The notes beneath the pieces were generated by a model, which saw only the letters and a list, made by a program, of their open reading frames with translations, was not told the DNA's origin and did no database searches. 64,000 nt of DNA, from positions 744,001-808,000 of the forward strand of contig NZ_CP071246.1 in assembly GCF_021496665.1 (NCBI RefSeq), in the 5' to 3' direction. Made by a program: the position numbers and the translations under genes. The DNA comes from Corynebacterium sp. CNCTC7651 (GTDB lineage: Bacteria > Actinomycetota > Actinomycetes > Mycobacteriales > Mycobacteriaceae). The stretch's first letter is position 1; each line of letters begins with the position of its first letter. Shown one piece after another: positions 2,747-64,000 of the stretch.

Positions 2747-5110
2747 ATGGCAACCACAAAGGTCAGCGTCGGCGGCCGCACGCTTTCGGTGAGCAGCTTG
2801 GACAAAGTGCTCTATCCGGCAACGGGCACCACGAAAGCGGACGTGATGCGCTACTACCTCGAGGTGGCGGACGTGCTGGTGCCGCAGGTGCGCGGCAGGC
2901 CCGTGACGCGCAAACGCTGGCCGGACGGGGTGGAAGGGCAGAGCTTCTTCCGCAAGGACCTGGAAACGTCCGCGCCCAGTTGGATCCGCACCGGCGAGAT
3001 TCAGCACAAGACCTCCACGAATGCGTATCCGCTTATCGACGGTCCCGAGACCCTCGCCTGGCTCGCCCAAGTGGCTGCCCTGGAATTGCACACCCCGCAG
3101 TGGCGGTTCGGCCCGGACGGTAAGCAGGGGAACCCGGACCGGCTGGTGCTGGACTTAGACCCGGGCGAGGGTGTGACTATGCCCCAGATCGCGGAGGTGG
3201 CGCTATGGTGCCGCGAGATTCTGGAGGGCATGGGGCTGACCAGCGTGCCGGTGACCTCCGGGTCCAAGGGCATCCATCTCTACGCGGGCCTGGACGGGAC
3301 CAGCGATGCCGCGGCCGTAAGCAGCGTGGCCAAGGCGTTGGCGCAGGCGCTGGAAGAAGAGCACCCGGGCCGCGTCACCGCCACCATGCGCAAGACCGAG
3401 CGGGCGGGCAAGGTGTTTCTGGATTGGAGCCAGAACAACGGCAAGAAGACCACGGTCAGCCCCTATTCATTGCGCGGCCGCGCCCGCCCAACCGTGGCCG
3501 CGCCGCGAACGTGGGAGGAGATCGCGGACCCGGATCTGCGCCACCTCGAGTTCGAAGAAGTGATTGAGCGGGTGGCGGACGGGTTGGACCCCATCGCCGC
3601 GCTGGGTGCGCCCGGTGCTCCCGCCGACGCATCTGCAGCACCCACCGACCGGCTGACCAAGTACCGCTCCATGCGCGACGCCACCAAGACGGGCGAGCCA
3701 GTGCCGGACGCAGCCCCGCAGCCGCGCGAGGGGGAGCCGATCTTTGTCATCGGGGAGCACGACGCCACCCGCCTGCACTGGGACTTCCGCCTGGAGCACG
3801 AGGGCGTGCTGGTCTCCTGGGCGGTGCCGAAGGGCCCGCCGCTGGACCCGGAGCTCAACCGCCTTGCGGTGCAGACGGAGGACCACCCGTACGAGTACGC
3901 CTGGTTCGAAGGCACCATCCCCAAGGGCCAGTACGGCGCGGGCAACGTGAAAATCTGGGATATCGGTACCTGCGAAATCGAGAAGTGGCGAGACGACGAG
4001 GTGATCGCGGTGCTCTACGGGCGTGCGGGCGGCGGCTTGGGCGGCGTACCGCGCCGCTACGCGCTGATCCGCACGGAGGGGGAGAACTGGCTGCTGAAAT
4101 TCATGAAGCGCCAGCCGCCGGCCGAGCCCCACGGGCGGCCCGAGCCCGAGGCGCCTGGTGCCACTGAGGCTTCTGGGGGGCGGGCGGAAGCAGACGTCGA
4201 CAAGCATGAGCCCCCGGCCCCGATGCTGGCTACGGCGGCGACGGAGGCGGACATCCGGCTGGCGGTGCAGGACGGCGCGACGCTCGCGTACGAGATGAAG
4301 TGGGACGGCTACCGCATCATCGCGGACGCATCCGCCGACACGATTCGCCTGATCAGCCGCGGCGGGAAGGACTACACGTCGCTGTTCCCGCAGCTTGAGC
4401 TCCCGCTTGACGACGCCACCTTTGACGGCGAACTGGTCGCCCTCGACGCGGACGGGAAACCGAACTTCTCGCTGCTGCACGCGGCGGACAAGCACGGCGA
4501 TGCGGGGGATGTGCAGCTGCGGTACATGGTGTTCGACCTGCTGCGGGTGGGGGAGAGGGACCTCACGGCCGAGCCGTACGACGCGCGCCGGGCGGAGCTG
4601 GAAGCGCTTTCGGAGACAGACACCGCCGCGATCCCGCCGGCGTTTCGCGGGGCGTTCAAAGCGGCGTGGTCGGTGGCGGGGGAGATGGGGTTGGAAGGTG
4701 TCGTGGCAAAGCACACCAGCTCCCCGTACGTGTCCGGGCGCAGCCGGAGCTGGCTGAAGGTGAAGCGCGCGTTGCACCAGGAAGTTGTGGTGGTGGGCGT
4801 GCGCGAGGGGAAATCGCTCCTGGTCGCGGTACCGAACGAGGACGGGGAGCTGACCTACGCCGGGCGCGTGGGCACGGGGTTTTCGTCGGGGCAGCTCGCC
4901 GAGATCGAGCGGGAGCTGGGGCGCATCAAGCGCAAAACCCCGCCCGTCGAGGTGCCGGCGGAAGACGCGAAAGACGCGTGGTGGGTCACCCCGAAACGGG
5001 TGGCCGAGGTGGCGTTGGCGGGCGCGACGGGCGGGGGCAAGGTGCGGCAGGCGTCGTGGCGCGGGTGGCGCGACGACAAATCGCCCGACGACGTCCGCTG
5101 GGAGGTGTAG
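2747..5110 (+). CDS. ligD: multifunctional NHEJ ATP-dependent DNA ligase D
   Basis: A 787-residue LigD with the mycobacterial domain order polymerase - 3' phosphoesterase - ligase. Residues 1 to about 300 are the primase-like polymerase (D-L-D-P-G and S-G-S-K-G motifs). The phosphoesterase follows at about 330-480, with H-x-x-T-R-L-H-W-D-F-R-L and K-G-Q-Y-G-A-G. The ligase domain starts near 490 with the adenylation motif K-W-D-G, Lys at residue 518. It fills, trims and seals broken ends held by Ku. I choose the ATG at 2747 over 2738 because TAGGAT lies 7 nt before it. The linker before the ligase domain holds V-D-K-H-E from residue 484, encoded by a C variant of the dispersed 11-mer; two other unrelated proteins in the window carry the same peptide. 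Confidence 0.95.
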   Translation: MATTKVSVGGRTLSVSSLDKVLYPATGTTKADVMRYYLEVADVLVPQVRGRPVTRKRWPDGVEGQSFFRKDLETSAPSWIRTGEIQHKTSTNAYPLIDGPETLAWLAQVAALELHTPQWRFGPDGKQGNPDRLVLDLDPGEGVTMPQIAEVALWCREILEGMGLTSVPVTSGSKGIHLYAGLDGTSDAAAVSSVAKALAQALEEEHPGRVTATMRKTERAGKVFLDWSQNNGKKTTVSPYSLRGRARPTVAAPRTWEEIADPDLRHLEFEEVIERVADGLDPIAALGAPGAPADASAAPTDRLTKYRSMRDATKTGEPVPDAAPQPREGEPIFVIGEHDATRLHWDFRLEHEGVLVSWAVPKGPPLDPELNRLAVQTEDHPYEYAWFEGTIPKGQYGAGNVKIWDIGTCEIEKWRDDEVIAVLYGRAGGGLGGVPRRYALIRTEGENWLLKFMKRQPPAEPHGRPEPEAPGATEASGGRAEADVDKHEPPAPMLATAATEADIRLAVQDGATLAYEMKWDGYRIIADASADTIRLISRGGKDYTSLFPQLELPLDDATFDGELVALDADGKPNFSLLHAADKHGDAGDVQLRYMVFDLLRVGERDLTAEPYDARRAELEALSETDTAAIPPAFRGAFKAAWSVAGEMGLEGVVAKHTSSPYVSGRSRSWLKVKRALHQEVVVVGVREGKSLLVAVPNEDGELTYAGRVGTGFSSGQLAEIERELGRIKRKTPPVEVPAEDAKDAWWVTPKRVAEVALAGATGGGKVRQASWRGWRDDKSPDDVRWEV

Positions 5111-5138
5111 CGGCTACTTCTTCCGCCTACTTTTCGAT

Positions 5139-5342: not shown

Positions 5343-5472
5343 GGCGGTGGCCTCCAGGTTTCATCTTGGTTAATAAATGGTGCACCCGATAGTAGCGCGG
5401 GACTTTGAGGTGCCTCGGGCGGTGCTACGTTGGGAAGTGATACACCTCGCACAACGTAAGGAACTGTGCCCC

Positions 5473-7426: not shown

Positions 7427-7430
7427 AGTT

Positions 7431-8228
7431 CTAGTCGTGGTTGGGTGCGGCGCCGTCAATGAGCTCTGCACCGTCGCGCCACTGCGCGTCTGCGCTGGCC
7501 AGCGCGTGGTCGAACGTCAAGGGCGCGTCCGAGGCGGCGACCACCACGTTGCCGTACGCCCGCCCGTCCAGCATGGCGGCGGGGGCGGCGGCTGCGGTGT
7601 GTCGAAAGAGCGTCGATAAGCCAGCGAGCTCCGCTCGCGTGACGGGGAGCCCGGCGCGGTCCCCGATGTTGGCCACGAAGAGCCCGCCCGCGGCGAGTGC
7701 GCGGCGCACGGCGCGGAAGTACTCCACCGTGGTCAGCGGGCGCGGCGTGGTGGGGCCGGCGAAGACGTCGCGCACGATCACATCCGTGGAGCCCGGCACA
7801 AGCGCGTGCGTGAACGCGCGGGCCTCGGCGACGGTGATCTGCACCGGCGGGTCGAACGCCCAGCGCACCAGGCGGGCGAGACCGCGGTCCACCTCCACGG
7901 CCGTGTTGCTGCTTTCCCAGCGGTGCGCGACGTAGGCGGGCAGCGCGCAACCGGCGGCGCCTAGGTGGACGGCGGTGAACGGCTCGGCGAGGGCGTGGCC
8001 TGAGATGAAGCCGGCGATCCAGCGCATGTAGTCGTACTCCAACACCTCCGGCGCGCCGGGCACGACGTAGGAGGACGGGACGCGGTTGACCTCCAGGATG
8101 TACGCGCCGTCGCGCTGCGGGTCGGCGACGATAGCGGCCTCGCCCGTGTCGATCGGGTACGTGCCCGCGATGCGCTTCTTCGCGGCGCGGGGCTTGCGCC
8201 CGCCGGAGGTGCCGCCTAGTTGTTCCAT
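7431..8228 (-). CDS. spermidine synthase-like SAM-binding protein
   Basis: A 265-residue Rossmann-fold protein resembling actinobacterial spermidine synthase-like methyltransferases. V-H-L-G-A-A-G-C-A-L near residue 88 fills the nucleotide-binding loop position, followed by V-E-V-D at the acidic end of strand 2 and D-V-I-V-R-D-V-F-A-G near residue 150. The short Lys/Arg-rich start suggests a cytosolic protein. It overlaps the 3' end of the second MFS gene by 13 nt on the same strand, so they were probably one operon. Whether it binds polyamine or S-adenosylmethionine cannot be told. Confidence 0.65.
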   Translation of the reverse strand: MEQLGGTSGGRKPRAAKKRIAGTYPIDTGEAAIVADPQRDGAYILEVNRVPSSYVVPGAPEVLEYDYMRWIAGFISGHALAEPFTAVHLGAAGCALPAYVAHRWESSNTAVEVDRGLARLVRWAFDPPVQITVAEARAFTHALVPGSTDVIVRDVFAGPTTPRPLTTVEYFRAVRRALAAGGLFVANIGDRAGLPVTRAELAGLSTLFRHTAAAAPAAMLDGRAYGNVVVAASDAPLTFDHALASADAQWRDGAELIDGAAPNHD

Positions 8229-9617
8229 GATTGGGTCTTGGCGAAACCGCAGGCCAGTGCCGCGCCAGCGAGCAACACGGCGCAGGGCAGCCAGATGGTG
8301 GTGCTCATGGCCTGGGCGAACGGTTCGTGGAGCGCTTCCGGCAGCGGGCCGGCGAAACCGCCTCCGGCGCCCGGTGCGGCGGCGCTGGCGTTATCCCCCA
8401 AGCGAGCGTTGAGCTGGGCCGATATCATCGCCGCCACAGCCGCGGAGCCGATGACCGCGCCGATCTGGCGCATGGTGTTGTACACGCTCGAACCGGCGCC
8501 GGCCAGCGCAGGCTCCAGGTTGCGGGTGGCCACCATGGACAGCGGTCCCCACATCATCGAGTTGCCCACGCCGTAGAGCACAGAGGCAAGATACATCCAC
8601 CGCGGGTCCACGGCTGGGGTGGCGATGAGGGCGGTCATGGCGATTGCCAAAGCTGCCGTCGATAAGCCTGCAATGGCGAAAGGCTTGGGGTCGTGCGAGT
8701 TGGTCAGTTTCCCATTCCTGCACGGTCTGGACGTAGATCATCCACGGGATGGCGAAGGTGGACACGGCGAAACCGACGGTGGCGATGGTCAAGCCCGCGA
8801 GCGTGAAGTTGCGGTTGGTGAAGAGACGGAGCGGCACCAGCGCGTCGTCCCCGCGGCGGGTTTGCCAGCGCCCGAAAGCGGCGAGCAGCACCGCGCCGGC
8901 GGCGAGCAGCGCCCAGAAACGCCAATCCCACCCGAAACGCTGCGCCTCCTGAATGCCGAAGACCAAGCAGAACATGCCGAAGGCGCTGAGGCCCGTACCG
9001 ACCCAGTCGAAGTTGCGGTTCGTGCGTTCGAGTTTGGGCACGAAGATCCACGCGAGGATGAGGCCCACGATGCCGACGGGCGCGTTGACGTAGAAGATCC
9101 AGGGCCAACCGCCGGTATCCACAAGCAGACCGCCGAGGAGCGGCCCGGTGACGGTGGCCAGGCCAGCGGTGGCGCCCCACACGCCCATCGCGCCGCCGCG
9201 CTCGCGGGGGGAGAACGTGCGGATCATCACCGACATGGTCTGCGGCGTGACCAACGCGCCGCCGAGGCCCTGGACGGCGCGGGCGGCGATCAGCGCCGCG
9301 GCCGAATCGGCCAGACCGCATGCCAGGGACGACGCCGTGAACAGCGCCAGGCCGATGAGGTAGATGGTGCGCGGGCCGTAGCGGTCCCCGAACCGGCCGG
9401 TGATCAGCAGGGGCACCGCATACGCCAAGAGGTACGCGCTGTTAACCCAGATGACCTCGTTGTACGTCGCGTCCAAGCTTTCCGCGATCGCCGGAATGGC
9501 CACGGAGACGATGGTGGAATCCACCAGGATCATGAAGAATCCCAACATCATCGCCCAGAGCGCCGACCAGGGGGAACGGCCGGGCTGGGTGCGGGATCGC
9601 CTCTCTTGCGTGGTCAC
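8216..9617 (-). pseudogene. EmrB/QacA-type MFS efflux transporter with internal deletion and frameshift
   Basis: From the GTG at 9617 the protein reads as a drug:H+ antiporter of the 14-helix type, with G-R-F-G-D-R-Y-G-P-R (motif A) and a motif C-like G-P-L-L-G-G. After the segment Y-V-Q-T-V-Q-E-W the sequence jumps, at about 8708-8713, to the C-terminal part in a different frame (G-K-L-T-N-S-H-D-P-K), which runs to the stop at 8216. Roughly one or two membrane segments are missing, so a deletion not divisible by three is the simplest reading. The transporter should be inactive as written. Promoter: TAAAAT exactly 7 nt before the GTG. Confidence 0.8.
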
Positions 9618-11282: not shown

Positions 11283-11392
11283 GCTGGGGGTCCCTTTGAG
11301 AGGTTGAAGTGAGCGTCGATAAGCATGACAACCGTAACAAAGAACGCAGCCCGTGCCCGGGAAAGAAACGGGGGGAGTGGGGTGCGATGGGC

Positions 11393-16806: not shown

Positions 16807-17784
16807 CTAAACCACTCGCACGCGCCCGGTGCCGGCGACTGTCTCGCCGATCACCGGGTAGCCCGGCACCTCGCCGATCACCAGCAAACCGCCGGAGGTC
16901 TGCGCGTCCGCGAGCACGAGGAGTTCCTCCTCGCCCAAGTCCGAATCCACATGCGGGCGCACCCAATCCAAGTTGCGGCGCGAACCGCCCGGCACGAATC
17001 CGTCCTGAAGGGTTTGCAAGGCGCCGTCGATAAGCGGGACGCTCCGGAAGTCCACCACGGCGTCGACGCCGGAGGCGCGCGCCATCTTGAACAGGTGCCC
17101 CAGCAGGCCGAAGCCGGTGACATCGGTGGCAGCGCGCGCGCCGGCGGCCACGGCGGCCTCGGACGCGGCGCGGTTCAGCGTGGTCATCACGGCGATCGCC
17201 TCGTCGAACCACTCGCCGGTGGCCTTGTGCCGGTTGTTCAGCAGGCCGGAGCCGATCGGTTTGGTCAGGGTGATGGGGAGGCCGGCTTCGGCGGTGTCGT
17301 TACGCATGAGCCTCGCCGGGTCCGCGGTGCCAGTCGCAGCCATGCCGTAGATCGGCTCGGGCGCGGAGATGGAGTGCCCGCCGGTGACGGAGATGCCGGC
17401 CTCGGTGGCGGCGTCGAGCCCGCCGCGCAGCACCTCGCGGATGAGCTCCTGCGGCAGCACGTCGCGCGGCCATCCGAGCAGGTTAATCGCGGTGATGGGG
17501 GTGCCGCCCATGGCGTAGACATCGCTCAGCGCGTTGACTGCGGCGATCTTGCCCCAGGTGTACGCGTCATCCACCACGGGGGTGAAGAAATCGGCGGTGG
17601 AAATCACTGCGAGGTCATCGCGCACGCGGATCGCGGCGGCGTCATCGCCGTCGTCTAGGCCGACGATCACGTTCGGGTCCGCGAAGCCGACCAGGCCGGC
17701 CACCGCGTCCTCGAGCTCGCCCGGCGGGATCTTGCAGGCGCAGCCGCCGCCTGCGGCAAATTGGGTCAAACGGATTTCGCTCAT
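16807..17784 (-). CDS. selD: selenophosphate synthetase
   Basis: A 325-residue SelD that makes selenophosphate from selenide and ATP, the selenium donor for SelA. The N-terminus has G-G-G-C-A-C-K near residue 12-18, where the family has its catalytic Cys (or Sec) and Lys; here it is cysteine, so the enzyme does not need selenium for its own synthesis. The ATP-grasp-like core holds V-G-L-D-D-G-D-D-A-A and A-T-D-V-T-G-F-G-L-L-G-H. It is transcribed leftward, convergent with the fdh operon (23 nt away) and divergent from tRNA-Sec. A TACCAT hexamer 6 nt before the ATG suggests a leaderless message. One copy of the dispersed 11-mer lies at 17035. Confidence 0.93.
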   Translation of the reverse strand: MSEIRLTQFAAGGGCACKIPPGELEDAVAGLVGFADPNVIVGLDDGDDAAAIRVRDDLAVISTADFFTPVVDDAYTWGKIAAVNALSDVYAMGGTPITAINLLGWPRDVLPQELIREVLRGGLDAATEAGISVTGGHSISAPEPIYGMAATGTADPARLMRNDTAEAGLPITLTKPIGSGLLNNRHKATGEWFDEAIAVMTTLNRAASEAAVAAGARAATDVTGFGLLGHLFKMARASGVDAVVDFRSVPLIDGALQTLQDGFVPGGSRRNLDWVRPHVDSDLGEEELLVLADAQTSGGLLVIGEVPGYPVIGETVAGTGRVRVV

Positions 17785-17923: not shown

Positions 17924-19222
17924 ATGGACCCGCGCCGCGCCATTCCGCGCACCGATGCATTGCTCGCGCTTGTCGACGCTTCTTCGCACCCGCCCTTACA
18001 TCCCGCGAGCCTCAAGGCCATCGCTGCGCGGACGCAGGAACGGGCGCGACGCGGCGAGATCGCGCCGGGGGATGTGGAGGCCGAGTTCTTGGCGGGGGTG
18101 GCGCGTGGTGCGTCCACACTGACGCCGGTGATCAATTGCACCGGCGTGGTGGTGCACACCAACGTCGGCCGCGCGCCGCTCGGAGATGGCGCGGTGGAAG
18201 CGATGGCGCGCGCGGCCGGGTACGTGGACGTGGAGATGGATTTGGCCCGCGGGGAACGCTCCCGCGAGCGCGGCAAGCAGGCCACCGACGCGCTGCTGGC
18301 CGCGTGCCCCGCAGCGGAAGACGCGCTGGTGGTGAACAACGGCGCGGCTGCGCTCTTGCTTGCGGCGGCGACGTTCGCGGAACACAGCAAACTGGTGATT
18401 TCGCGCGGCGAGTTGATCGAGATCGGTGCCGGGTTCCGTCTGCCCGAGTTGATCGAGTCCGCGCGCGTGGAGCTTGTGGAGGTAGGCGCGACCAATCGCA
18501 CCCACCCGGCGGATTACGAGCGCGCCGCCGCTGCCGGGGCGAAGGCGCTTCTGAAGGTGCACCCGTCAAATTACCGGGTGGAAGGGTTTACGTCGCAAGT
18601 CAGCGTGGCGGAGCTGCGCGTGATCGCGGACGCGCACGGGGCGGCGCTGATTGTGGATACCGGCTCCGGCCTGCTCGCGCCGGATCCGGCGCTGCCGGAC
18701 GAGCCTGACGCGACAACCGCGCTGCGGGCGGGAGCGGACGTGGTGCTGTTCTCCGGCGACAAGCTGCTCGGCGGCCCGCAGGCCGGGGTGGTGCTGGGCC
18801 GCGCGGAGGCGATCGCGGCGATGCGCAAGCACCCGCTGGCGCGCGCGGTGCGGATCGACAAGGTGCGCCTTGCCGCGCTGGAGGCGACGCTTCGGCTGGC
18901 GCACAACCCCACGCACGCGTACCTGCACGCCGATCCCGCGCAGCTCAAGGCCCGCGCCGATGCGCTGGCCGCCGCTACCGGCGGTGAGGTCGTGCCCCAC
19001 GACGGCCGCGTCGGCGGCGGGGGAGCGCCCGGCCACCCGCTTCCGGGCTGGGCCGTGCGTTACGACGCTTCCTTTGCAGCGCCCCTGCGCCACCGCAACC
19101 CCGCAGTGCTGGGGCGCGTGCACGGCGGTCACCTGCTGATAGACCTGCGCTGCGTGCCGGAGGACCGCGACGGCGAAGTCGCCGCCGCGGTGCGGAACGT
19201 GATCGAGGAGGCGGGGAAGTGA
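17924..19222 (+). CDS. selA: L-seryl-tRNA(Sec) selenium transferase
   Basis: A 432-residue PLP enzyme that converts Ser-tRNA(Sec) to Sec-tRNA(Sec) using selenophosphate. The N-terminus R-A-I-P-R-T-D-A-L-L is typical of SelA, and the PLP lysine lies in F-S-G-D-K-L-L-G-G-P-Q-A-G near residue 285. G-A-x-N-R-T and D-T-G-S-G-L are also present. A strong GGGAGG ribosome site precedes the ATG. The TGA stop overlaps the GTG of selB by 4 nt, so the two are translationally coupled. Confidence 0.95.
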   Translation: MDPRRAIPRTDALLALVDASSHPPLHPASLKAIAARTQERARRGEIAPGDVEAEFLAGVARGASTLTPVINCTGVVVHTNVGRAPLGDGAVEAMARAAGYVDVEMDLARGERSRERGKQATDALLAACPAAEDALVVNNGAAALLLAAATFAEHSKLVISRGELIEIGAGFRLPELIESARVELVEVGATNRTHPADYERAAAAGAKALLKVHPSNYRVEGFTSQVSVAELRVIADAHGAALIVDTGSGLLAPDPALPDEPDATTALRAGADVVLFSGDKLLGGPQAGVVLGRAEAIAAMRKHPLARAVRIDKVRLAALEATLRLAHNPTHAYLHADPAQLKARADALAAATGGEVVPHDGRVGGGGAPGHPLPGWAVRYDASFAAPLRHRNPAVLGRVHGGHLLIDLRCVPEDRDGEVAAAVRNVIEEAGK

Positions 19223-20985
19223 GCTACGTCGTCGCCACCGCCGGGCACGTAGACCACGGCAAATCCACCCTGGTCAAGCGCTTGACCGGCATGGAGCCGG
19301 ACCGCTGGGAGGAGGAACGCCAGCGCGGGTTAACTATCGACCTGGGGTTTGTGTGGGCCGACATCGACGGCCAGGATGTCGCCTTCGTGGACGTACCGGG
19401 GCACGAGCGCTTTATCGCCAACATGCTCGCCGGTGTCGGCCCGGCCCCGGCGGTGATGCTGGTCGTGGCAGCGGATGAGGGCGTGATGGCCCAGACCGTG
19501 GAGCACATGGCGGCCATCGACGGCTTCGGCATCCGCACCGGCGTGATTGCGGTGACGAGGGCGGATCGGGCTGAAGGGGAGCGTCGTCAAACAACGCGTG
19601 CCCAGATCGCAGACGCGGTGGCGCGCACCACGCTCCAGGACTGGCCCGTGGTGGAGGTCTCCGCCGTCACCGGCGAGGGGCTGGACGAGCTGCGGACCGC
19701 GCTGGCCGAAGTGCTGCGGGCGGCGCCGGCACCGGACGCGGGGGCGCGGGTGCGGTTCTGGGTGGACCGCTCCTTCACGGTCAAGGGCGCGGGCACGGTG
19801 GTGACGGGCACGCTCACCGCGGGCACGATCCGCCCGGGCGACACACTTGCATTGCGCGGCGAGGAGGTCCAGGTGCGCTCCGTGCAGTCGGAGGACGCCC
19901 CGATCGACACCGCGACCCCGGCGCGTCGCGTGGCGCTGAATCTGCGCGGCGTAGACGCGGAGCGCGTGGGGCGCGGGGACGCGCTGACCACCCCGGGCGC
20001 ATGGCACCGCACCGCCTTGGTGGACGTGGTGCTTGCGGTATCGCCGCCGGAGGGCGGCACATGCGAGGAGTTGCCGCGCGAGGCCGTGGCGCACATCGGC
20101 ACCGCGGGCGTGGGCTGCCGGGTCCGTTCGCTCGGGCCGGCGTTCGCGCGGCTGACGCTGGAGGAGCCGCTGCCGCTCACACTCGGCGACACGATCGTGC
20201 TGCGCGGCACCGGCGGCCAGCGCATTTTGGCCGGCCTGACCGCGATTGACGTGGACCCGGAGCCGTTCACCCGCCGCGGCGACGCCGCCCGCCGAGCCGA
20301 GGAGCTCGATCCGGACCCGGACGTGAGCAGGGAGATCGCGCGCCGCGTCGCCGTTACGCCGGCGCACCTCGCGCGCCTCGGCTTCGAGGTGGGCGACACC
20401 CCGCCGGCGGGGTCTATCGCGTTTGCGGGCTACTGGATCCGCGCCGAACAGGTCATGTCGTGGAAAGAGCAGCTCATCGCCGCCGTGGCCGAGTATGAAC
20501 AAGCGAATCCGCTGGGTGCGGGGTTGTCGGTGGGGGCGGGCGTCGAAAAGCTTGGGCTCCCGGATGCCAAGCTGCTCCCGCTCGCGGCGGCCGCGGCGAA
20601 ACTCACGGTGCGCGGCGGCGTGATTAGCTCCGGGCGCGACCTGGACCTAGGGCCCGGGATTGCGAAGTTGGAGGCGCACCTCGAGCGCGACCCGTTCGCC
20701 GCGCCCGAGGCGCGCGACCTGGAGGCGTGGCACGTGGGTGCGAAGGAGCTCGCTGCTGCGGAGCGCGCGGGGCGAGTCATCCGTATCGCGGACGGCGTGG
20801 TGCTGCTGCCGGACGCGCCCGCCCGCGCCGCGGCGCTGCTGCGCGGCATCGAGCAGCCGTTCACCGCCTCCGACGCGCGCAAGGCGTGGGGCACAACGCG
20901 CCGCGTGGCCATCCCGCTGCTTGAACTGCTCGACGCGCAAGGAAAAACCCGCCGCGTGGCAGGCACGCAGCGGGTTGTGGTCTAG
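19219..20985 (+). CDS. selB: selenocysteine-specific elongation factor
   Basis: A 588-residue SelB that brings Sec-tRNA(Sec) to the ribosome at a UGA with a SECIS hairpin. G1 is G-H-V-D-H-G-K-S-T near residue 9, G3 is D-V-P-G-H-E-R-F and the G4 position has T-R-A-D, followed by EF-Tu-like domains 2 and 3. The last roughly 180 residues fit the winged-helix repeats that bind SECIS RNA. The GTG start overlaps the selA stop. A CGTCGAAAAGC copy of the dispersed motif lies at 20541, reading V-E-K-L. Confidence 0.95.
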   Translation: MSYVVATAGHVDHGKSTLVKRLTGMEPDRWEEERQRGLTIDLGFVWADIDGQDVAFVDVPGHERFIANMLAGVGPAPAVMLVVAADEGVMAQTVEHMAAIDGFGIRTGVIAVTRADRAEGERRQTTRAQIADAVARTTLQDWPVVEVSAVTGEGLDELRTALAEVLRAAPAPDAGARVRFWVDRSFTVKGAGTVVTGTLTAGTIRPGDTLALRGEEVQVRSVQSEDAPIDTATPARRVALNLRGVDAERVGRGDALTTPGAWHRTALVDVVLAVSPPEGGTCEELPREAVAHIGTAGVGCRVRSLGPAFARLTLEEPLPLTLGDTIVLRGTGGQRILAGLTAIDVDPEPFTRRGDAARRAEELDPDPDVSREIARRVAVTPAHLARLGFEVGDTPPAGSIAFAGYWIRAEQVMSWKEQLIAAVAEYEQANPLGAGLSVGAGVEKLGLPDAKLLPLAAAAAKLTVRGGVISSGRDLDLGPGIAKLEAHLERDPFAAPEARDLEAWHVGAKELAAAERAGRVIRIADGVVLLPDAPARAAALLRGIEQPFTASDARKAWGTTRRVAIPLLELLDAQGKTRRVAGTQRVVV

Positions 20986-23640: not shown

Positions 23641-23680
23641 AAAGAAAATACCACCTCCCGCGCGCTTGCGGGAGATGGCT
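23641..23680 (-). terminator. terminator of the peptide ABC operon
   Basis: On the minus strand CTCCCGC and GCGGGAG (23656-23675) pair around a 6 nt loop with flanking CCA/TGG pairs, followed by a T-rich tail (A-rich on the plus strand, 23636-23650). A GCTTTTCGACG copy of the dispersed motif lies at 23679-23689, between the stop codon at 23704 and the hairpin. Confidence 0.8.
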
Positions 23681-23703
23681 TTTCGACGATCGCAGGAAGA
23701 CGC

Positions 23704-29915: not shown

Positions 29916-29936
29916 CATGCTTATCGACGATGGCTC

Positions 29937-49637: not shown

Positions 49638-50792
49638 CTAGATCAACTTGGAGTAGATATCTACCGTTTCCTGCGCGATGGTAGCCCAAGAGAAGTCCGC
49701 GACGGCGCGCTCGCGGCCGGCTTCGCCCATGCGTGCCGACGCTTCCTTGTCCAACGCCACAGCATTCACAGCTTCTGCGATGGAGCGCTCGAACGTCTCG
49801 GGATCATTCTCGTCGTAGTCCACGAGCGTGCCGGTTTCCCCGTCGACCACAACCTCGGGGATGCCGCCCACGCGGGAGGCAACCACGGCGGTGCCGCACG
49901 CCATCGCCTCAAGGTTCACAATGCCCAGCGGCTCATAAATGGAGGGGCAGACAAACACGTCGGAGGTGGAGTAGACCTCGCGGATGCGCTCCGGCGGCAG
50001 CATGTCCTGCACCCAGAACACCCCGTCGCGCTCAGCGCGCAGCTTCTCCACGAGCGCGTTGGTCTCCTCCGCAATTTCCGGAGTGTCCGGGGCGCCGGCA
50101 CAGAGGATGAGCTGAACACTATCGTCGAAAAGCTGAGCTGCCTTGAGCAGGTGCGGCACGCCCTTCTGGCGCGTGATGCGACCGACGAAAGAAGCGATGG
50201 GGCGGGAGGTGTCCACGCCGAGCTCCTCCGCGATAGTGCCGGTCTCGGGGAACCAGCGCTCCGGGTCGATGCCGTTGAGCACCACGTGGACCTTGTCCGC
50301 GTCAATGTTCGGGTAGGCGCGCAGGATCGCGTCCTTCATCCCGGAGGACACGGCGATCACGGCATCCGCGTGCTCCATCGCATTCTTTTCGCTCCACGAC
50401 GATATGTCGTACCCGCCGCCAAGCTGCTCGCGCTTCCACGGGCGGTCCGGCTCCAGCGAGTGGGCGGTGACAACGTGCGGAATGTCGTACAGCAGGCCCG
50501 TCAGGTGCCCGCCCAGGCCGGAGTACCAGGTGTGGGAGTGCACCACGTCCAGCCCGGTCGCGGCGTTGGCCATCCGCAGGCCGGTGGAGAGGGTCTTCAG
50601 CGCGCCGTTGGCGTTTTCCAGCTCCGGGTCAACGCCGTGGACGTAAACGTTTGCCTCATCGCGCGGGGCGCCCATGCAGTGGACATCCACGTCCACGATC
50701 TCGCGCATAAACCGTGTCAGCTCCGTGACGTGCACGCCCGCACCGCCGTAAATTTCCGGCGGGTACTCCTTGGTCATCATTCCCACTCTCAT
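49638..50792 (-). CDS. glgA: actinobacterial glycogen synthase / GT4 glucosyltransferase
   Basis: A 384-residue GT-B glycosyltransferase starting [19 protein letters not shown], where K-x-G-G-like loops bind the glucose donor. The GT4 signature [17 protein letters not shown] lies near 290-306. It belongs to the short actinobacterial type, which in mycobacteria makes maltose-1-phosphate or elongates alpha-glucan. It diverges from glgC across 115 bp, with TAAGCT 8 nt before its ATG. Confidence 0.93.
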
Positions 50793-52200: not shown

Positions 52201-52869
52201 GGTGATCAGCGTCAAGCCGCCGTCCAGCGGCAGGCGGGTCACCACCGCGCCGGTGTCCACGGCAAGCGCGTCGATGCGCACGTCGGCCTCGCGCGCGGCT
52301 TCCGTCTCGCGGTCGCGGCGGGACGGGTCGGCCACGGTGCCGTCGAGAAGCGAATCAGCGATGACCAGGGTGCCTCCGGGGGAGAGGAGTGGCCAGGCGA
52401 CGTCGATAAGCGCGGGGAGCTCCAGCGGCGCTACGTCCGCGTAGATGAGCTGGTACGCGCCGTTGGCCAGGCGCCCCATCACGTCCAGCGGGCGCGCGGT
52501 GAGGAAGCGGGCGCGCGACGGCGCGTATCCCCCGAGCTTGAACGCCGCCTTCGCCTCCGCCTGCAGCGCGGCCTCCGGTTCGATGCAGGTCAGCGTGGCC
52601 TTTTCCGGCAGCCCGCGCAGAATGTGCAGCCCCACGACACCGGCGGCCGGCGTCACTGCTACCGCACCTTGGCCCGCACTCGCCGGGTGGGCGGCGGCAA
52701 GCGTGCTCAGCAGCGTGCCGACGATCGCACTCGGCGCGCGCACCCCATTTTCTTCAGCCTCTACGTGGGCGTGGCTGAGGCCTTCGCGGAACTCCTCGGT
52801 GAACTGCGCTTGGGAGCCGTTGCGCTCGTTGATGTAGGCGGTCATTTGGGAAAACGCGGTCTCGGTCAC
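52192..52869 (-). CDS. O-methyltransferase family protein
   Basis: A 225-residue SAM-dependent methyltransferase of the catechol O-methyltransferase-like group (Y-I-N-E-R-N near the start; V-T-P-A-A-G-V-V-G-L-H in the SAM loop; I-Y-A-D-V-A-P near 135). In related genomes a gene of this type is divergent from sigE, as here. The GTG at 52869 is chosen because TATGAT lies exactly 7 nt upstream. The substrate is unknown. A motif copy at 52401 reads L-I-D-V. Confidence 0.8.
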   Translation of the reverse strand: MTETAFSQMTAYINERNGSQAQFTEEFREGLSHAHVEAEENGVRAPSAIVGTLLSTLAAAHPASAGQGAVAVTPAAGVVGLHILRGLPEKATLTCIEPEAALQAEAKAAFKLGGYAPSRARFLTARPLDVMGRLANGAYQLIYADVAPLELPALIDVAWPLLSPGGTLVIADSLLDGTVADPSRRDRETEAAREADVRIDALAVDTGAVVTRLPLDGGLTLITKK

Positions 52870-54067: not shown

Positions 54068-54475
54068 GTGTTCTCCAGTTTCGGTTGGGTTGAATTCTTC
54101 GTCCTGCTTATCCTCGGCCTCATAGTGATCGGCCCAGAGCGCCTGCCCGGGGTGATTGAGGATGTGCGTGCAGCCATTTACGCCGCTCGCAAGGCGATCA
54201 ACAACGCGAAGCAGGAACTCAACGGTGAGCTGGATGAGTTCGAGGAGTTCCGCAAACCGCTGGACACCGTTTCCAAGTACGCGGCGATGGGGCCTGCGCG
54301 CGCGATGTCGTCCCTGCTTTTCGACGGGGACGAGGACTACCTCAACGAGTTCGACCCCCGCCGAGTCCTGGCGGACGAGGAGCCCGGCAGGTCGGGTCCG
54401 CGTCCGGGGCGGGAAAATCGAACGTCGGAAAGCAAGAAGCCCCAAGCGGGCTTCTCTTGGGAGGACGTGCTTTAG
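54068..54475 (+). CDS. tatB: twin-arginine translocase subunit TatB
   Basis: A 135-residue TatB: one N-terminal membrane helix (F-F-V-L-L-I-L-G-L-I-V-I-G-P-E-R-L-P) with the conserved Glu/Pro hinge, an amphipathic helix, then an acidic tail. It binds twin-arginine signal peptides together with TatC. GTG start by -10 spacing. The stop overlaps the convergent mrp stop by 4 nt. A motif copy at 54316 reads L-L-F-D-G. Confidence 0.93.
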   Translation: MFSSFGWVEFFVLLILGLIVIGPERLPGVIEDVRAAIYAARKAINNAKQELNGELDEFEEFRKPLDTVSKYAAMGPARAMSSLLFDGDEDYLNEFDPRRVLADEEPGRSGPRPGRENRTSESKKPQAGFSWEDVL

Positions 54476-55626
54476 GTCGGTGTGACGCCGAGGCTCTTGC
54501 CGGCGAGGGAATCGCGGCGCACTTTGAGCTTTTCGACGATTGCTGCAACCGCCTGCGATGCCGGGGAATCCGGCTGGGCGATGACGACTGGGGTGCCGTC
54601 GTCGCCGTGCTCGCGCAGCGTGGGGTCGAGCGGGACGGAGCCGAGAAGCGGGACGTCGCTGTCTGTGAGCGCGGTGAGGCGGTCCGCGACGCGCTGGCCG
54701 CCGCCCTCGCCGAAGACGTGCATGGTGGTGCCGTCCGGCATGGCGAGGCCGGCCATGTTCTCGATGACACCGGCGATGCGCTGGTTGGTTTGCTGCGCGA
54801 TCGTGCCCGCGCGCTCCGCGACCTCGGCGGCGGCGGCCTGCGGTGTGGTGACGATGATCAGCTCCGCGTTGGGCACAAGCTGCGCGACGGTGATGGCGAC
54901 GTCGCCGGTGCCGGGCGGGAGGTCCATGAAGAGGACGTCTAGGTCGCCCCAGTAAACGTCGCCGAGGAACTGCTGGATGGCGCGGGTGAGCATGGGACCG
55001 CGCCAGACGATCGGCGCGTTGCCCTCCACGAATTGGCCGATGGAGATGTGGCGGACGTTGTGGGTGATCGGGGGCATGATCATCTCATCCACCACCGTCG
55101 GGCCCTTGTCCGCCGAGCCCATGAGGCCGGGGATGGAGTGGCCGTAGATGTCCGCGTCCACGATCCCGACGGTGAGGCCCTGCGCCGCCATCGCGGTGGC
55201 GAGGTTGACCGTCATGGAGGACTTGCCCACGCCGCCCTTGCCGGACGCGACGGCGAAGATGCGCGTGCGCGTGTCCGGATCCGCGAACGGGATGGCGGGG
55301 CCGGTCTGCTCGCCGCGGAGCTTCTGGGCGAGTTCGCGGCGCTGCTCGTCGCTCATCGTGTGCATGGTGACGGTGACGGCGCCTGCGCCCGGCAGCTCCT
55401 CGAGCACGGCTCGGGTGTTGCTCTCGATGGTGTCGCGCATCGGGCATCCGGCGATGGTGAGGTAGATACCGGCGGCGATGTCCGTGGTGCCGGCGGGGTT
55501 GTCGCTGAGCTTGACCGATTCGACCATGCCGAGTTCGGTGATGGGTTTACCGATCTCCGGGTCCTCGACGCGAGCGAGGGCCTCGAGGACATCGGCTTCG
55601 GTGATGGGGGCGTGGGAAGTATCCAT
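54472..55626 (-). CDS. mrp: Mrp/ApbC-type iron-sulfur cluster carrier ATPase
   Basis: A 384-residue P-loop protein. An N-terminal DUF59 domain (R-V-E-D-P-E-I-G-K-P-I near residue 20) precedes the deviant Walker A G-K-G-G-V-G-K-S near 130; D-A-D-I-Y-G-H-S and M-D-L-P-P-G-T-G-D follow. It carries Fe-S clusters to apo-enzymes. The usual C-x-x-C near the C-terminus is not evident, as in other actinobacteria. TATACT lies 11 nt before the ATG (55638-55643), giving a very short leader. Confidence 0.93.
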   Translation of the reverse strand: MDTSHAPITEADVLEALARVEDPEIGKPITELGMVESVKLSDNPAGTTDIAAGIYLTIAGCPMRDTIESNTRAVLEELPGAGAVTVTMHTMSDEQRRELAQKLRGEQTGPAIPFADPDTRTRIFAVASGKGGVGKSSMTVNLATAMAAQGLTVGIVDADIYGHSIPGLMGSADKGPTVVDEMIMPPITHNVRHISIGQFVEGNAPIVWRGPMLTRAIQQFLGDVYWGDLDVLFMDLPPGTGDVAITVAQLVPNAELIIVTTPQAAAAEVAERAGTIAQQTNQRIAGVIENMAGLAMPDGTTMHVFGEGGGQRVADRLTALTDSDVPLLGSVPLDPTLREHGDDGTPVVIAQPDSPASQAVAAIVEKLKVRRDSLAGKSLGVTPT

Positions 55627-57186: not shown

Positions 57187-60100
57187 CTAGTTGGCAAACG
57201 CTTCGTCGATAAGCGCCTGCTCCTCCTGCTGGTGAACCTTGGCCACACCGGTAGCGGTGGTGGACTGGGCGCGGCGGGAAACGCGGACCATCTCCGGCAT
57301 GTCCGGGATGAGGTCGCGCAGGTGCTCGTTGTAGAACGGCCATGCGCCCTGGTTGGCCGGCTCGTCCTGCACCCAGCGAATCTGCTTCACGTTCGGGTAG
57401 TTCGCAAACGCGTCGGCGAGGCGGTTGAACGGGATCGGGTGGAGCATCTCCACACGGATGATGGCAACGTCGTCGCGGCCGTCCTTCTCCTGGCGCTTCG
57501 CAAGCTCGTAGTAGATCTTGCCGGAGCACAGCAGGATGGTCTCCACCTTGTCGTGCTTCGCGCCGTCAACCAACTTGTTGCCGCGGGAGACAAAGTTCGG
57601 GTCATCGATCACGGACTCGAACTTGGTGGCCTCGATGAAGTCCGCCGGCTGGGACACGGCGGCCTTGTTGCGCAGCATGGACTTCGGCGTGAACACGACC
57701 AGCGGGCGCTTCATCTCACCCAGCGCCTGGCGGCGCAGCAGGTGGAAGTGGTTCGCCGGGGTGGACGGCTGGGCCACGGTCATGGAGCCCTCCGCGCACA
57801 GCTGCAGGTAGCGCTCGATGCGTGCCGACGAGTGGTCCGGACCCTGACCCTCGTAACCGTGCGGCAGAAGCATGGTGAGGCTGGACAGCTCGCCCCACTT
57901 GGTCTCGCCGGAGGAGATGTACTCGTCGATGATGGTCTGGGCGCCGTTGGCGAAGTCGCCGAACTGCGCTTCCCAAGCCACCACGGCGTCCTGGTCGCCC
58001 AGGGAGTAGCCGTACTCGAAGCCCAGGCCCGCGTACTCGGTCAGCGCGGAGTTGTAGACCTCGAAGCGGCCGCCGTTGTCTGCCTCAAGCGCGTTGTGGT
58101 CGAGCGGGTTGTATGCCTCGCCGTTCTCCGGGTTGTACAGCACCGCGTGGCGCTGGGTGAAGGTGCCGCGCTGGGAGTCCTCGCCGGCGAGGCGGACAAA
58201 CTTGCCCTGCTCCGCCAAGGAACCGAAGGCGAGCAGCTCGCCCCAGCCCCAGTCGATGTCGCCGCCCTCGAAGGAGCCGCCGCGGTTCTTCAGCACGTTC
58301 TTCAGGCGCTTGTTCGGCGTGAAGTCCTCCGGCAGGTCCGCGTAGGTCTCTGCGAGGCGCTTGAAGGTGTCCTCGTCGATGGAGGTATCCAGGCCGCGGG
58401 TGAGCTTCTGCGCCTCGGTGATGCCGGTCTGCTCGCTCGGCTGGCCCTCGGATGCCTTCACGTCGGAGAACACGGCATCCAGCTGGTCGTGGAAGTCCTG
58501 TGCCGCGATCTCCGCTTCTTCCTGGGTGATGTCGCCGCGGCCGATCAGGTCCTTGGTGTAGCGGGTGCGTACGGACTCGTGGTGCTCGATGCGGTCGTAC
58601 ATGACCGGCTGGGTCACCGTCGGGTCATCGGCCTCGTTGTGGCCGCGCAGGCGGTAGCAGATCAGGTCGATGAAGACGTCCTTGCCAAACTCGCGGCGGT
58701 ACTCGGTGGCCAGCTGGGCAACCCAGGCTGCCGCCTCCGGGTCGTCGCCGTTGACGTGGAACACCGGGCAGTCGAAGCCCTTGGCCAGGTCGGTGGCGTA
58801 GTAGGAAGAACGGCCGGACTCCGGGGTGGTGGTGAAGCCGATCTGGTTGTTCACCACGATGTGGACGGTGCCGCCCACGGAGTAGCCCGGCAGGCGGGAC
58901 AGGTTCAGCGTCTCCTGGACAATGCCCAGGCCGGCGAAAGAAGCGTCGCCGTGGAGCATGAGCGGGACAACCGGGTAATCATCGCGGCCCTCGGTGGCCT
59001 TGAGCAGGTCGGTCTTGGCGCGGGCCATACCCACCAGGACCGGGTCCACGGCCTCGAGGTGGGACGGGTTGGCGGCCAGGGAGACCTTGATCTCGCCGTC
59101 GCCGAACATCTGGATGTGCTCGCCCTCGAAGCCCAGGTGGTACTTCACGTCGCCGGAGCCACCCTGCTGGGCGGCCTTGAAGTTGCCCTCGAACTCGTTG
59201 AAGATCGTGGCCACCGGCTTGCCGACGATGTTGAACAGCACGTTCAGGCGGCCGCGGTGCGGCATGCCAATCACAACCTCGTCGAGGCCCTGGCCGGCGG
59301 CAGTGTCAATCACCGCGTCCATCAGCGGGATCAGGGTTTCAGCGCCCTCGAGGGAGAAGCGCTTCTGGCCCAGGTACTTGGTCTGCAAGAAGTTCTCGAA
59401 CGCCTCTGCGGCGTTGAGCTTCTGCAGGATGTACTTCTGCTCCGCGGTGGTCGGCTTCGGCATGCCGGCCTCCATGCGGTCGCGCAGCCAGTCGCGCTCG
59501 TCGCGGTCCATCACGTGCGCGTACTCGGCGCCGACGTGCAGGGTGTAGGCGGCGCGCAGGCGGGAGAGCACCTCGCGCAACGTCATGGTCTCCTTGCCGC
59601 CGAAGCCGCCGACGTGGAACGTGCGGTCCAGGTCCCAGATGGTCAGGCCGTGGGACTCCAGCAGCAGGTCGCGGGAATCCGGCTTGGGCAGACCCGGCTG
59701 GTGCCAGCGCAACGGGTTGGTGTCCGCGATGAGGTGGCCGCGCGCACGGTAGGAGTGGATGAGCTGCATGATGCGGGTGTCCTTGTTGATACCCGTGTCC
59801 GGCAGGTCCTGTGCCCAACGCAGCGGCGCGTAGGGGATCTCCAGGGAATCGAAGATGGCGTCCCAGAACTTATCGTCGATAAGCAGCTGCGCAATGTCGC
59901 GCAGGAACTCGCCGGACTCGGCGCCCTGGATCACGCGGTGGTCGTAGGTAGAGGTGAGCGTGACCAGCTTGCCCACGCCGAGCTCTGCCAGGCGGTCCTC
60001 GGAAGCGCCGGCGAACTCCGCCGGGTAGTCCATCGCGCCAACGCCCACGATGGTGCCCTGGCCCTTGGTCAGGCGCGGGATGGAGTGACGGGTGCCAATG

Positions 60101-61095: not shown

Positions 61096-64000
61096 CTAGC
61101 GGTGCGCCGCCCACATGGCCGCGTAGCGCCCGCCGGCGGCGATCAGCTCGTCCGGAGTGCCGTCTTCGACCACCTCGCCGCCGTCGATCACCAGGATCCG
61201 GTCCGCGCGCGCCGCCGTGGCCAGACGGTGGGCGACGATCACGGAGGTCCGCCCGGCCGTGGCGGAGTCGGCGGCGTCCAGCACGGCGCGTTCGGTGGCT
61301 GGGTCCAACGTTGCGGTGGCCTCGTCCAGCAGCACCACGTCCGGCTGCAGCATCTCGGCGCGCGCGAGCGCGATGATCTGCCGCTGGCCCGAACTCAAGC
61401 CGCGCCCTCGGCCGCCGACACGCGCCGTGAACCCGCCCGGGATGGCCGCAATCACGTCCAGCGCGCCGATGCGCCGCACGGCGTCCTCCACCTCGGCATC
61501 GCTCGAGCCGGGTACGCCGTATGCGATGTTCGCCGCCACCGTGCCCTCGAACAGGGTGGATTCCTGCGGCACCTGGGCGAGCGCACGCCGCCACTGCGCG
61601 AGCGGGAACTCCGCGACATCCCTCCCGGACGCGCGCACCGCGCCTGAGGTTGGATCATAAAACCGGGCCAGCAGCTTGACGACGGTCGATTTCCCCGCCC
61701 CCGTCGGCCCCACCAACGCCACTGTCTCCCCGGGGCGCAGGACAAGGTCCATGTGGTCGATGACCTGGGGCGACTTCGGGTCGTCGGGGCGGTAGGTAAA
61801 GGAGACGTCGTCAAGCATGAGCTCCCCGCGCGCGGCGGAGGAAGCCCCGGGGGTAGCACCGGTGTCGGGGACGGTGGTGCGTTCCGCGAGGAGGGCGGTG
61901 ATGCGCTCGAAGCTGACGGTGGCTTGCTGCCAGGAGTCGAAGATCTGGCCGAGCTGCTGGATGGGGCCGTAGAGCAGGCCGAGGTACATGGTGAAGGCGA
62001 CAAGGACGCCGACGGAGAGGCTGCCTTCCGCGACGCGCTGCGCGCCGACGCCGATGACCACGGCCGTCATGACCTGGCTGATCGCCTGCATGCCGGGGAA
62101 GTACGTGGCCACCAGCGCGGCGGTGCGTACGCGGAGCCGGCGGTACTCGTCGGACATGGCGGTGAAGCGGGCTTCCGCAGCTGCTTCGCCGCGGTGCATC
62201 TGGGTGATGCGGATGCCGCCGATGAGCTCCGCGAACTCGCCGTTGACGGCGGAGACCTGCTGGCGCGCCGCGGTGTAAGTGCGTTTGGAGAAGCGGCGGA
62301 ACACCGCTGTCGCCGCCACGATCAGCGGCACGGCGATAAGTGCGACGAGCGTGAGCGTGAGATCCGTGGCCACCAGCATCACGGACACGCCAACCAGGCT
62401 GCCCACCGCCACAATCGCCTGGGCCAGGCCGGATTGGAGGAAGGAGCTCAAGGTGTCTATGTCCGTGGTCATGCGGGTGATGATCTTGCCGGACAGCCTC
62501 GACTCGAAGTAGCTCAAGCCCAGCTGCTGCAGGTGCGCGTAGCTGCGCAGACGCAGGCCGTAGAGCAGGCGCTCGCCCGCCCGGGCGGAGAGGACGGTCA
62601 CGGCCGCGTCCGCCGCCCACGCCGCGAGCACGACCATGAGCGCAAGCGCACCGATGCGCACGAGGTAGCCGGTGTCGGCGCGCTCGATGCCGCCGTCGAT
62701 GGCCGCGCGGATCAGCGTGGGAAACGCCAGGTCCGCCACCACACCGACCACCAGCAGCGCCACCGTCGCGGCGATGAGCCAGCGCACCGCCTTGAACAGG
62801 TTGGCCACCTTGAACTCGCTGGACGGCGTGCGCAGCCGCTCAAGTTCCGCGTCGGCGAGACCGGGGCGCTCCGACGCCGGCGGGAGCTTGGCCACGCGCT
62901 CCAAAAGCTCCGGCGTGGCGTTGACCGGCGCGTTCCTGCCGCCGCCCCCGCCCTTGCTGCCGACGGTGGGCGCGAGCACGCGGCCTTCGCCGGTGGGCTC
63001 GGTGCCGGATGCAGCCTCGGGCCACAGCAGCTCCCGCGGGGGCTCGTGCTTATCGACGTTTGTTTCAACCGTCCCCGGGTCCATCACCCGCGCGTACGCC
63101 GCGGTGGCCACGATGTCCTCGCGTGGCCCGTCGGCGACGACGCGGCCGGTGTCCATCACCACCACGCGGTCCGCGTGGTCCACGGTGGATTGGCGGTGCG
63201 CCACCGCAATCACGGTCACGCCCTCGAGGTGTTGGCGCAGGTTGGCCAGGATGATGGCTTCGTTTTGGGCGTCGATGGCGGAGGTGGCGTCGTCAAGCAG
63301 CAGCACCGCGGGGCGGGTGAGCAGGGCGCGGGCGAGCGCGATGCGCTGGCGCTGGCCGCCGGAGAGGGTGAGGCCGCGCTCGCCGACCTCGGTGGCGTAG
63401 CCGTCGGGGAGGCGCTCGATGAACTCGTCTGCGCGGGCGAGGCGGGCGGCTTCGCGCACCGCGGCATCGAGCGCGTCCGGGCCCTGGTTGCGCAGTTCTT
63501 CCGTGGCGCCGAGGGCGATGTTGTCGAAGACGGAGGCGGAGAATAGGAAGGCCTCGTCGAACACGCAGGTGACCTTTGTCCGCAGCTCCTTAAGTGGGAG
63601 GCTGGGGTAGGGGATTGGGGTGTTCGAGGAAGCGTCGATAAGCAGGATGCTCCCTGCGTCCGGCTCGTAAAAGCCGCCGGCGAGCTGGACCGCCATGGAT
63701 TTGCCCGCGCCGGGCGGGCCGACGACGGCGACGGTTTCGCCGGGCGCGGCGGTGAGCGAGACGTCGCGTAAGACCTGGTGCCCGCCGGTGGCGAAGTCCA
63801 CGTTGCGGAAGGCGATGCCGCACGCGCCGGCGGGGGCGGTGCCGGTGGGAGCGTGTGTGGGCGCGGGGGCGAGGGAGAGGACATCCTCGAGGCGGTCGAC
63901 GGAGCTCATGCCCATCTGCATGCGCACGTACTGGCTGGTCAGCATGGCCATCTGGGATGTCATGGAGGTGAGGTAGCCCGTGAACGCCACGAAGGCGCCG
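61096..64000 (-). CDS. fused tandem ABC exporter, 5' end beyond window
   Basis: At least 968 residues of a two-in-one ABC exporter; the frame is open through the right edge with G-A-F-V-A-F-T-G-Y, a phrase from the last helices of a first membrane domain. Then NBD1 (G-P-P-G-A-G-K-S, L-S-G-G-Q-R-Q-R, V-L-L-L-D-D-A-T), a linker, a second six-helix domain, and NBD2 (G-P-T-G-A-G-K-S, L-S-S-G-Q-R-Q, V-V-L-L-D-E-A-T). The first Walker B carries Asp after the Asp, not Glu, so site 1 is probably degenerate. The linker includes N-V-D-K-H-E-P-P, encoded by a dispersed-motif copy (63048). The pairing with downstream odhA is common in corynebacteria; the substrate is unknown. Confidence 0.9.
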   Translation of the reverse strand, partial: GAFVAFTGYLTSMTSQMAMLTSQYVRMQMGMSSVDRLEDVLSLAPAPTHAPTGTAPAGACGIAFRNVDFATGGHQVLRDVSLTAAPGETVAVVGPPGAGKSMAVQLAGGFYEPDAGSILLIDASSNTPIPYPSLPLKELRTKVTCVFDEAFLFSASVFDNIALGATEELRNQGPDALDAAVREAARLARADEFIERLPDGYATEVGERGLTLSGGQRQRIALARALLTRPAVLLLDDATSAIDAQNEAIILANLRQHLEGVTVIAVAHRQSTVDHADRVVVMDTGRVVADGPREDIVATAAYARVMDPGTVETNVDKHEPPRELLWPEAASGTEPTGEGRVLAPTVGSKGGGGGRNAPVNATPELLERVAKLPPASERPGLADAELERLRTPSSEFKVANLFKAVRWLIAATVALLVVGVVADLAFPTLIRAAIDGGIERADTGYLVRIGALALMVVLAAWAADAAVTVLSARAGERLLYGLRLRSYAHLQQLGLSYFESRLSGKIITRMTTDIDTLSSFLQSGLAQAIVAVGSLVGVSVMLVATDLTLTLVALIAVPLIVAATAVFRRFSKRTYTAARQQVSAVNGEFAELIGGIRITQMHRGEAAAEARFTAMSDEYRRLRVRTAALVATYFPGMQAISQVMTAVVIGVGAQRVAEGSLSVGVLVAFTMYLGLLYGPIQQLGQIFDSWQQATVSFERITALLAERTTVPDTGATPGASSAARGELMLDDVSFTYRPDDPKSPQVIDHMDLVLRPGETVALVGPTGAGKSTVVKLLARFYDPTSGAVRASGRDVAEFPLAQWRRALAQVPQESTLFEGTVAANIAYGVPGSSDAEVEDAVRRIGALDVIAAIPGGFTARVGGRGRGLSSGQRQIIALARAEMLQPDVVLLDEATATLDPATERAVLDAADSATAGRTSVIVAHRLATAARADRILVIDGGEVVEDGTPDELIAAGGRYAAMWAAHR

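Follow-up and report, generated by a model that had tools for sequence, protein, structure and literature searches.

Uptake motifs are known from only two families, the Neisseriaceae and the Pasteurellaceae, according to the available text of a 2025 paper (PMC12616744). The DUS of the Neisseriaceae, whose reader is the minor pilin ComP, is a short word present in many copies, with dialects that track the phylogeny of the clades (PMC3630211, PMC12616744), and the USS of the Pasteurellaceae (Haemophilus influenzae and Actinobacillus) has a 9-mer core and occurs as two word types differing at few positions (PMC12616744). In Micrococcus luteus, natural transformation requires Flp pilus genes; the main text of the report describing this, as available, contains neither "uptake sequence" nor "specific DNA" as a term (PMC4322843). 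For Corynebacterium, the available text of a spaced-motif screen of prokaryotic genomes gives CRISPR-derived patterns only, for three species (PMC5217627), and polar octamers have been counted in C. aurimucosum (856 leading, 61 lagging; PMC2830990). Searching the open-licence literature, we found no uptake or transformation data or proof of competence for Corynebacterium and no report of uptake sequences in the genus or of the 11-mer CGTCGAWAAGC that is the subject of this study, in keeping with the first-pass annotation of this DNA, which knew of no corynebacterial precedent.

Abundance and sequence context of the 11-mer

The window analyzed here is a 64,000-nucleotide stretch (positions 744001-808000) of genome G000, a single contig of 2,453,109 bases. 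An exact search of the window found 26 copies of CGTCGAWAAGC, 13 per strand, comprising 17 CGTCGATAAGC and 9 CGTCGAAAAGC; 100 dinucleotide shuffles of the window averaged 0.07 copies and never exceeded 1. The variant CGTCGACAAGC occurs twice, at 4195 (+) and 17978 (-), for a window total of 28 copies, 14 per strand, spanning 3031-63643. The copies are listed below, those of CGTCGATAAGC and CGTCGAAAAGC from the exact search and those of CGTCGACAAGC from the variant count.

3031..3041, reverse strand, CGTCGATAAGC copy
4195..4205, forward strand, CGTCGACAAGC variant copy
7611..7621, forward strand, CGTCGATAAGC copy
8657..8667, forward strand, CGTCGATAAGC copy
11314..11324, forward strand, CGTCGATAAGC copy
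17025..17035, forward strand, CGTCGATAAGC copy
17968..17978, reverse strand, CGTCGACAAGC variant copy
20541..20551, forward strand, CGTCGAAAAGC copy
21611..21621, reverse strand, CGTCGATAAGC copy
23678..23688, reverse strand, CGTCGAAAAGC copy
29919..29929, reverse strand, CGTCGATAAGC copy
31768..31778, reverse strand, CGTCGATAAGC copy
32077..32087, reverse strand, CGTCGAAAAGC copy
34506..34516, forward strand, CGTCGATAAGC copy
36287..36297, reverse strand, CGTCGATAAGC copy
39070..39080, reverse strand, CGTCGATAAGC copy
39295..39305, forward strand, CGTCGAAAAGC copy
42259..42269, forward strand, CGTCGAAAAGC copy
43144..43154, reverse strand, CGTCGAAAAGC copy
46473..46483, reverse strand, CGTCGATAAGC copy
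50123..50133, forward strand, CGTCGAAAAGC copy
52401..52411, forward strand, CGTCGATAAGC copy
54316..54326, reverse strand, CGTCGAAAAGC copy
54528..54538, reverse strand, CGTCGAAAAGC copy
57204..57214, forward strand, CGTCGATAAGC copy
59874..59884, forward strand, CGTCGATAAGC copy
63048..63058, reverse strand, CGTCGATAAGC copy
63633..63643, forward strand, CGTCGATAAGC copy

The massive over-representation described in the first-pass annotation is borne out by these counts and by the whole genome, which carries 566 copies (297 on the forward strand, 269 on the reverse; mean spacing near 4.3 kb) vs 3 (1 + 2) of the reversed-word control. Details of the earlier tally of 16, 9, and 1 copies needed correction: the 9 copies of CGTCGAAAAGC stand, and the other two figures become 17 and 2. 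The span of 4195..63643 ends where it was said to end and starts too late, the T form at 3031-3041 on the reverse strand having been overlooked along with a second C form; near equality of the strands holds, with 14 forward and 12 reverse copies revised to 14 and 14 among 28. Density in the window is 1.75 times the genome mean (26 copies vs 14.8; Poisson P = 0.005, a flattering value, since the word's presence there was why the window was chosen), and selection of the window is possibly the cause of the excess.

In a 464-kb sample of the genome, consisting of the window and 20 further stretches, there were 119 perfect copies, where a third-order Markov model predicts 0.56, and all single-mismatch variants pooled amounted to 125. 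The bases CGTCG and the final GC were almost invariant in this sample, with some change allowed in the middle. Sampled at 22 stretches around the chromosome, the word was present in all of them, with 2 to 26 copies per stretch. The flanks of the G000 copies show a purine at -2 (A 61%, G 32%), are A-rich at -7, -6, +11, and +14, and are G-rich on the upstream side; their information content is about 0.9 bit at -2 and at most about 0.5 elsewhere, and their three-base rhythm may partly reflect codon phase. Also strongly over-represented in the 464 kb (L031-L050 and the window; 43-46 copies) were 12-mer families that include GGCGGTTCCGAC and GGTGGTTCTGAC, their source being perhaps a repetitive gene.

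Gene-based tests used a 484-kb sample, about one fifth of the chromosome, and a simple gene caller. Predicted genes contained 101 of the 123 sites in this sample, and 88 of these genic sites share one codon phase per orientation, translating in the main phase as Val-Asp/Glu-Lys and on the opposite strand as Leu-Ile/Phe-Asp. Synonymous codon shuffles of the genes (n = 100) gave a mean of 4.48 sites and a maximum of 9 vs the 101 observed, and the 22 extragenic sites exceed what is expected from the 10% of DNA outside predicted genes (P = 0.007). The codon shuffles, the extragenic excess, and the conservation within the genus described below agree with the earlier suggestion of a signal at the DNA level. 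Inverted USS or DUS pairs serving as transcription terminators are frequent, not essential, in the families that have these words; here, pairs in opposite orientation within 100 bp number 2 among 183 sites, so that inverted pairs are nearly absent. One of these two close pairs, L044:16560-16591, consists of copies facing each other with starts 21 bp apart; they make up an inverted repeat whose loop is 10 bases long.

Distribution and dialects in the genus

Counts of CGTCGAWAAGC in 242 Corynebacterium genomes ranged from 0 to 900, and 171 genomes had 40-900 copies, so the word is conserved across much of the genus. With this conservation, and with a density in the sample far above that of the codon shuffles, neither of the two outcomes that the first-pass annotation named as refuting it was observed. 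In 140 genomes from 30 other genera of the same family the counts stayed close to those of the control; the maximum was 35 copies, in a genome of 6.5 Mb with a control of 11. Rhodococcus aetherivorans had 0 copies, R. oryzae 5, and Gordonia asplenii 13. Among the genomes searched, the word is thus confined to Corynebacterium. Within the genus, C. urinipleomorphum has 637 copies, Corynebacterium sp. MSK041 has 587, and three metagenome assemblies have 223, 273, and 900, whereas C. variabile has 2 and a C. urealyticum assembly 10. In genomes G061 and G062, 28 of 29 examined sites are conserved, a pair too close (about 98% identical) to inform on turnover.

To find other over-represented words, we sampled 25 genomes in which CGTCGAWAAGC barely exceeded the control or did not exceed it. 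The CATCG form CATCGNNAAGC, which differs from CGTCGAWAAGC at position 2, has 490-1337 copies in 14 of the 242 genomes searched, with strands balanced, vs at most 223 in the other 228; in these 14 genomes the CGTCGAWAAGC counts are close to the control, G024 with 80 copies being the exception. Two sampled members (G106 and G222) of a group with about 140 copies each of CGTCGAWAAGC and CATCGNNAAGC use CGTCGGCAAGC, and G054 has 532 copies of CGTCGNNAAGC vs a control of 45. A very different word, ATGACGNCGCG, occurs 661 times in G012 (332/329 on the two strands; control 9) and 2-47 times in the other 57 genomes searched for it. A recognized form is therefore present in 186 of the 242 genomes and absent from 56. 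Modest excesses of CATCGNNAAGC (223 copies in G032, 213 in G157, 211 in G185) and of CGTCGNNAAGC (134 in G103, 115 in G171) in genomes without a recognized form may represent other or decaying forms.

The dialects follow phylogeny. In a tree built from two neighboring genes, the six of the 14 CATCG genomes that were included form one clade with support of 1.0, together with G043, which lies inside the clade and carries no form. G012 takes a basal position close to C. variabile, a weakly supported placement (0.41).

Strand, spacing, and rival explanations

Summed over the 171 genomes, the two strands carry 26,028 and 26,102 copies, a nominal strand bias (P < 0.05) appearing in one genome only; these figures come from a copy table transcribed by hand from the 242-genome counts. 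Forward and reverse counts agree more closely than binomial sampling would give (chi-square 115.6 over 171 genomes). Replichores were set by the published corynebacterial polar octamers in place of gene content at the contig start, and stretches were assigned to leading or lagging strand by octamer counts, some of them small. On this basis, the sampled stretches of G000 hold 61 leading-strand and 62 lagging-strand copies of the motif, a split that rejects a 75% bias (P = 1e-9); the corresponding counts are 14/18 in G059 and, for the CATCG form, 25/32 in G001. The polar octamers number 22 forward and 2 reverse in the window and are mostly reverse from 1.1 to 2.2 Mb; they thus switch strand between replichores, and the motif (13/13 in the window) does not.

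Even spacing and equal strands are also features of USS. The first 100 forward sites listed for G000 are spaced more evenly than random (CV 0.81, P = 0.02), as are the sites in the window (CV 0.64, P = 0.01), evenness that rests on this one genome. A search of 60 motif-rich genomes for prophage terminases yielded five genes in four genomes, around which the motif is depleted: 1 site vs 9.9 expected within 5 kb (P = 0.0005), 5 vs 13.9 within 7 kb (P = 0.006), and 12 vs 19.8 within 10 kb (P = 0.04), a depletion of five loci that fades as the margin widens. Judged by protein families, one of these regions is clearly a prophage and has 1 site in 40 kb where 8 are expected; another resembles a mobile island with transposases. 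Two terminase searches aimed at named corynephages gave none among the matches listed. A region of G039 at least 33 kb long (L242-L243) is free of the motif; it encodes transposases, an 1844-aa protein, and a short open frame resembling a terminase.

Several other origins of such a word were weighed. That it arises from a preference for certain codons or peptides (V-D/E-K, L-I/F-D), or is the remnant of a dispersed repeat, has very little probability: the common codon phase of 88 of the 101 genic sites is what such a preference would give, but the codon shuffles (4.5 vs 101), the extragenic excess, and the 140 sister-genus genomes without the word stand against it, and the codon by-product is refuted by the shuffles together with the sister-genus absence. 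The weakly conserved flanks in G000 speak against a repeat remnant, and the flank information likewise rejects a dispersed repeat element (REP/MITE), in that no longer repeated unit surrounds the core. To a polar segregation signal (KOPS/FtsK or "architecture imparting" octamers) we assign almost no probability; a high genome-wide copy number would suit it, but true polar octamers switch strand between replichores and the motif does not, which refutes this origin unless FtsK reads the motif without polarity. The first-pass annotation had already argued from strand balance for a nonpolar signal not of the FtsK type, and the neutrality toward replication direction upholds it. A terminus-restricted site of the matS type, a class confined to one macrodomain, is rejected by the copies in all 22 sampled stretches around the chromosome.

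A Chi-type recombination hotspot read by a RecBCD-, AddAB-, or AdnAB-like nuclease would account for a short, mostly genic word with hundreds of copies, and scarcity near prophage terminases would suit self-recognition. Known Chi sites favor the leading strand, however, and the 61/62 distribution with its rejection of a 75% bias, along with the length of an 11-mer with two blocks, which is long for Chi, makes this origin quite improbable. The strongest rival is a nonpolar chromosome-structuring site, evenly placed and bound by a chromosome-organizing (nucleoid- or condensin-associated) protein, with protein and site coevolving into dialects. Even spacing, presence on both strands all round the sampled chromosome, and occurrence inside genes are all compatible with it, but the depletion around prophage terminases (1 site vs 8 expected in 40 kb of clear prophage) counts against it, and perfect copies numbering up to 900 are more like the outcome of uptake drive than like known nucleoid sites. 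We regard it as unlikely.

A candidate DNA uptake sequence and its known counterparts

Of the options raised in the first-pass annotation, an uptake sequence fits best, given how evenly the copies are spaced, how the dialects follow phylogeny, and how few sites lie around prophage terminases. More broadly, a word that is limited to one genus, builds up as perfect matches, is neutral to strand, lies at even intervals, comes in dialects, and is scarce near terminases shows the pattern of uptake sequences, and we conclude that the 11-mer is probably a DNA uptake sequence of the genus Corynebacterium, of the kind known as DUS in Neisseria and USS in Haemophilus. We infer that the word is read during uptake and that its reader is a minor pilin. 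The Tad/Flp pilus is proposed as its reader on the ground that transformation of M. luteus needs Flp pilus genes. Under this model, some part of the Tad/Flp type IVc pilus, with a small TadE- or Rv3654c-like minor pilin as the best candidate, would bind the word on extracellular double-stranded DNA, pilus retraction would deliver the DNA to ComEA, ComEC would admit one strand, and DprA and RecA would recombine it. Fragments bearing the word would be taken up and recombined more often, building up perfect copies on both strands at fairly even spacing, and joint drift of receptor and word would give rise to dialects.

The machinery that the uptake model calls for is encoded widely. In G000 the genes for ComEA and ComEC are adjacent, DprA is encoded, and the Tad/Flp operon runs in the order CpaE-like, TadA, two TadB/C-type, Flp (DUF4244), TadE-like, and Rv3654c-like. 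ComEC was found in 241 of the 242 Corynebacterium genomes, a Tad ATPase in 239 at E <= 0.001 (232 above the curated cutoff), and DprA in all 20 genomes tested, six of them motif-free, the match in G029 being weak. That motif-free genome encodes a very divergent DprA (G029:C1:1842183-1842692; E 1.9e-16 vs 3.3e-57 or better in the 19 others). Because motif-free species also carry ComEC and the Tad ATPase, presence of the machinery does not predict the motif, and presence or absence of competence genes was rejected as the explanation of motif presence. All 30 genomes whose Tad ATPase matched TIGR03819 with an E value of 1.2e-109 to 1e-125, a range read by eye with the cut chosen afterwards, lack any form, and they may mark one Corynebacterium branch. 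The motif is present in G191 and G192 (about 1e-126) and in six genomes outside the 30 with weaker values (G014, G075, G095, G168, G169, and G189), whose matches are apparently fragmentary or chance hits. No pilin receptor was pinpointed among the small pilins listed from sampled tad loci, one listing of which missed 3 of 16 loci. In motif-free C. variabile (L190:11044-12120) and C. urealyticum (L211:2317-3477), a single protein of 358-386 aa replaces the separate TadB and TadC of the other sampled tad loci.

Counting against an uptake sequence are the near absence of inverted terminator-type pairs, the form-free G043 inside the CATCG clade, and the fact that a nonpolar chromosome-structuring protein could give much of the same pattern. 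On balance we nevertheless favor a wider proposal for the uptake sequence, with less assurance than its identity as such: that it is a third, independently evolved DNA-uptake language and the first in Gram-positives, that a Tad/Flp pilus reading CGTCGNNAAGC gives most Corynebacterium species natural competence, and that dialect changes (CATCGNNAAGC, ATGACGNCGCG) act as gene-exchange barriers between branches of the genus. If true, this would be the first such self-recognition tag outside two Gram-negative families, and an independent actinobacterial case, with its dialects traced through 242 genomes, would demonstrate repeated evolution of sequence-directed uptake, and with a different pilus. 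It would predict natural competence in Corynebacterium, a genus usually transformed by electroporation, and would explain the channeling of gene exchange among corynebacteria; the word itself is a direct handle for testing competence and finding the receptor.

Compared with the described systems, the Corynebacterium word resembles DUS in being short, in its many copies and dialects, and in accompanying genes for pilus-based uptake machinery; unlike DUS, to which it is unrelated in sequence, it belongs to a Gram-positive host with a Tad/Flp pilus and has nearly no inverted pairs. With USS it shares even spacing (in one genome) and equal strands, while differing in sequence and in lying about 4.3 kb apart vs the USS average of about 1 kb (PMC7811141). 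It is over-represented along the chromosome, as are Chi and the KOPS or architecture imparting sequences, but in contrast to those strand-polar words it is nonpolar. Like M. luteus, its host is an actinobacterium with the same type of tad locus and with ComEA and ComEC genes (PMC4322843).
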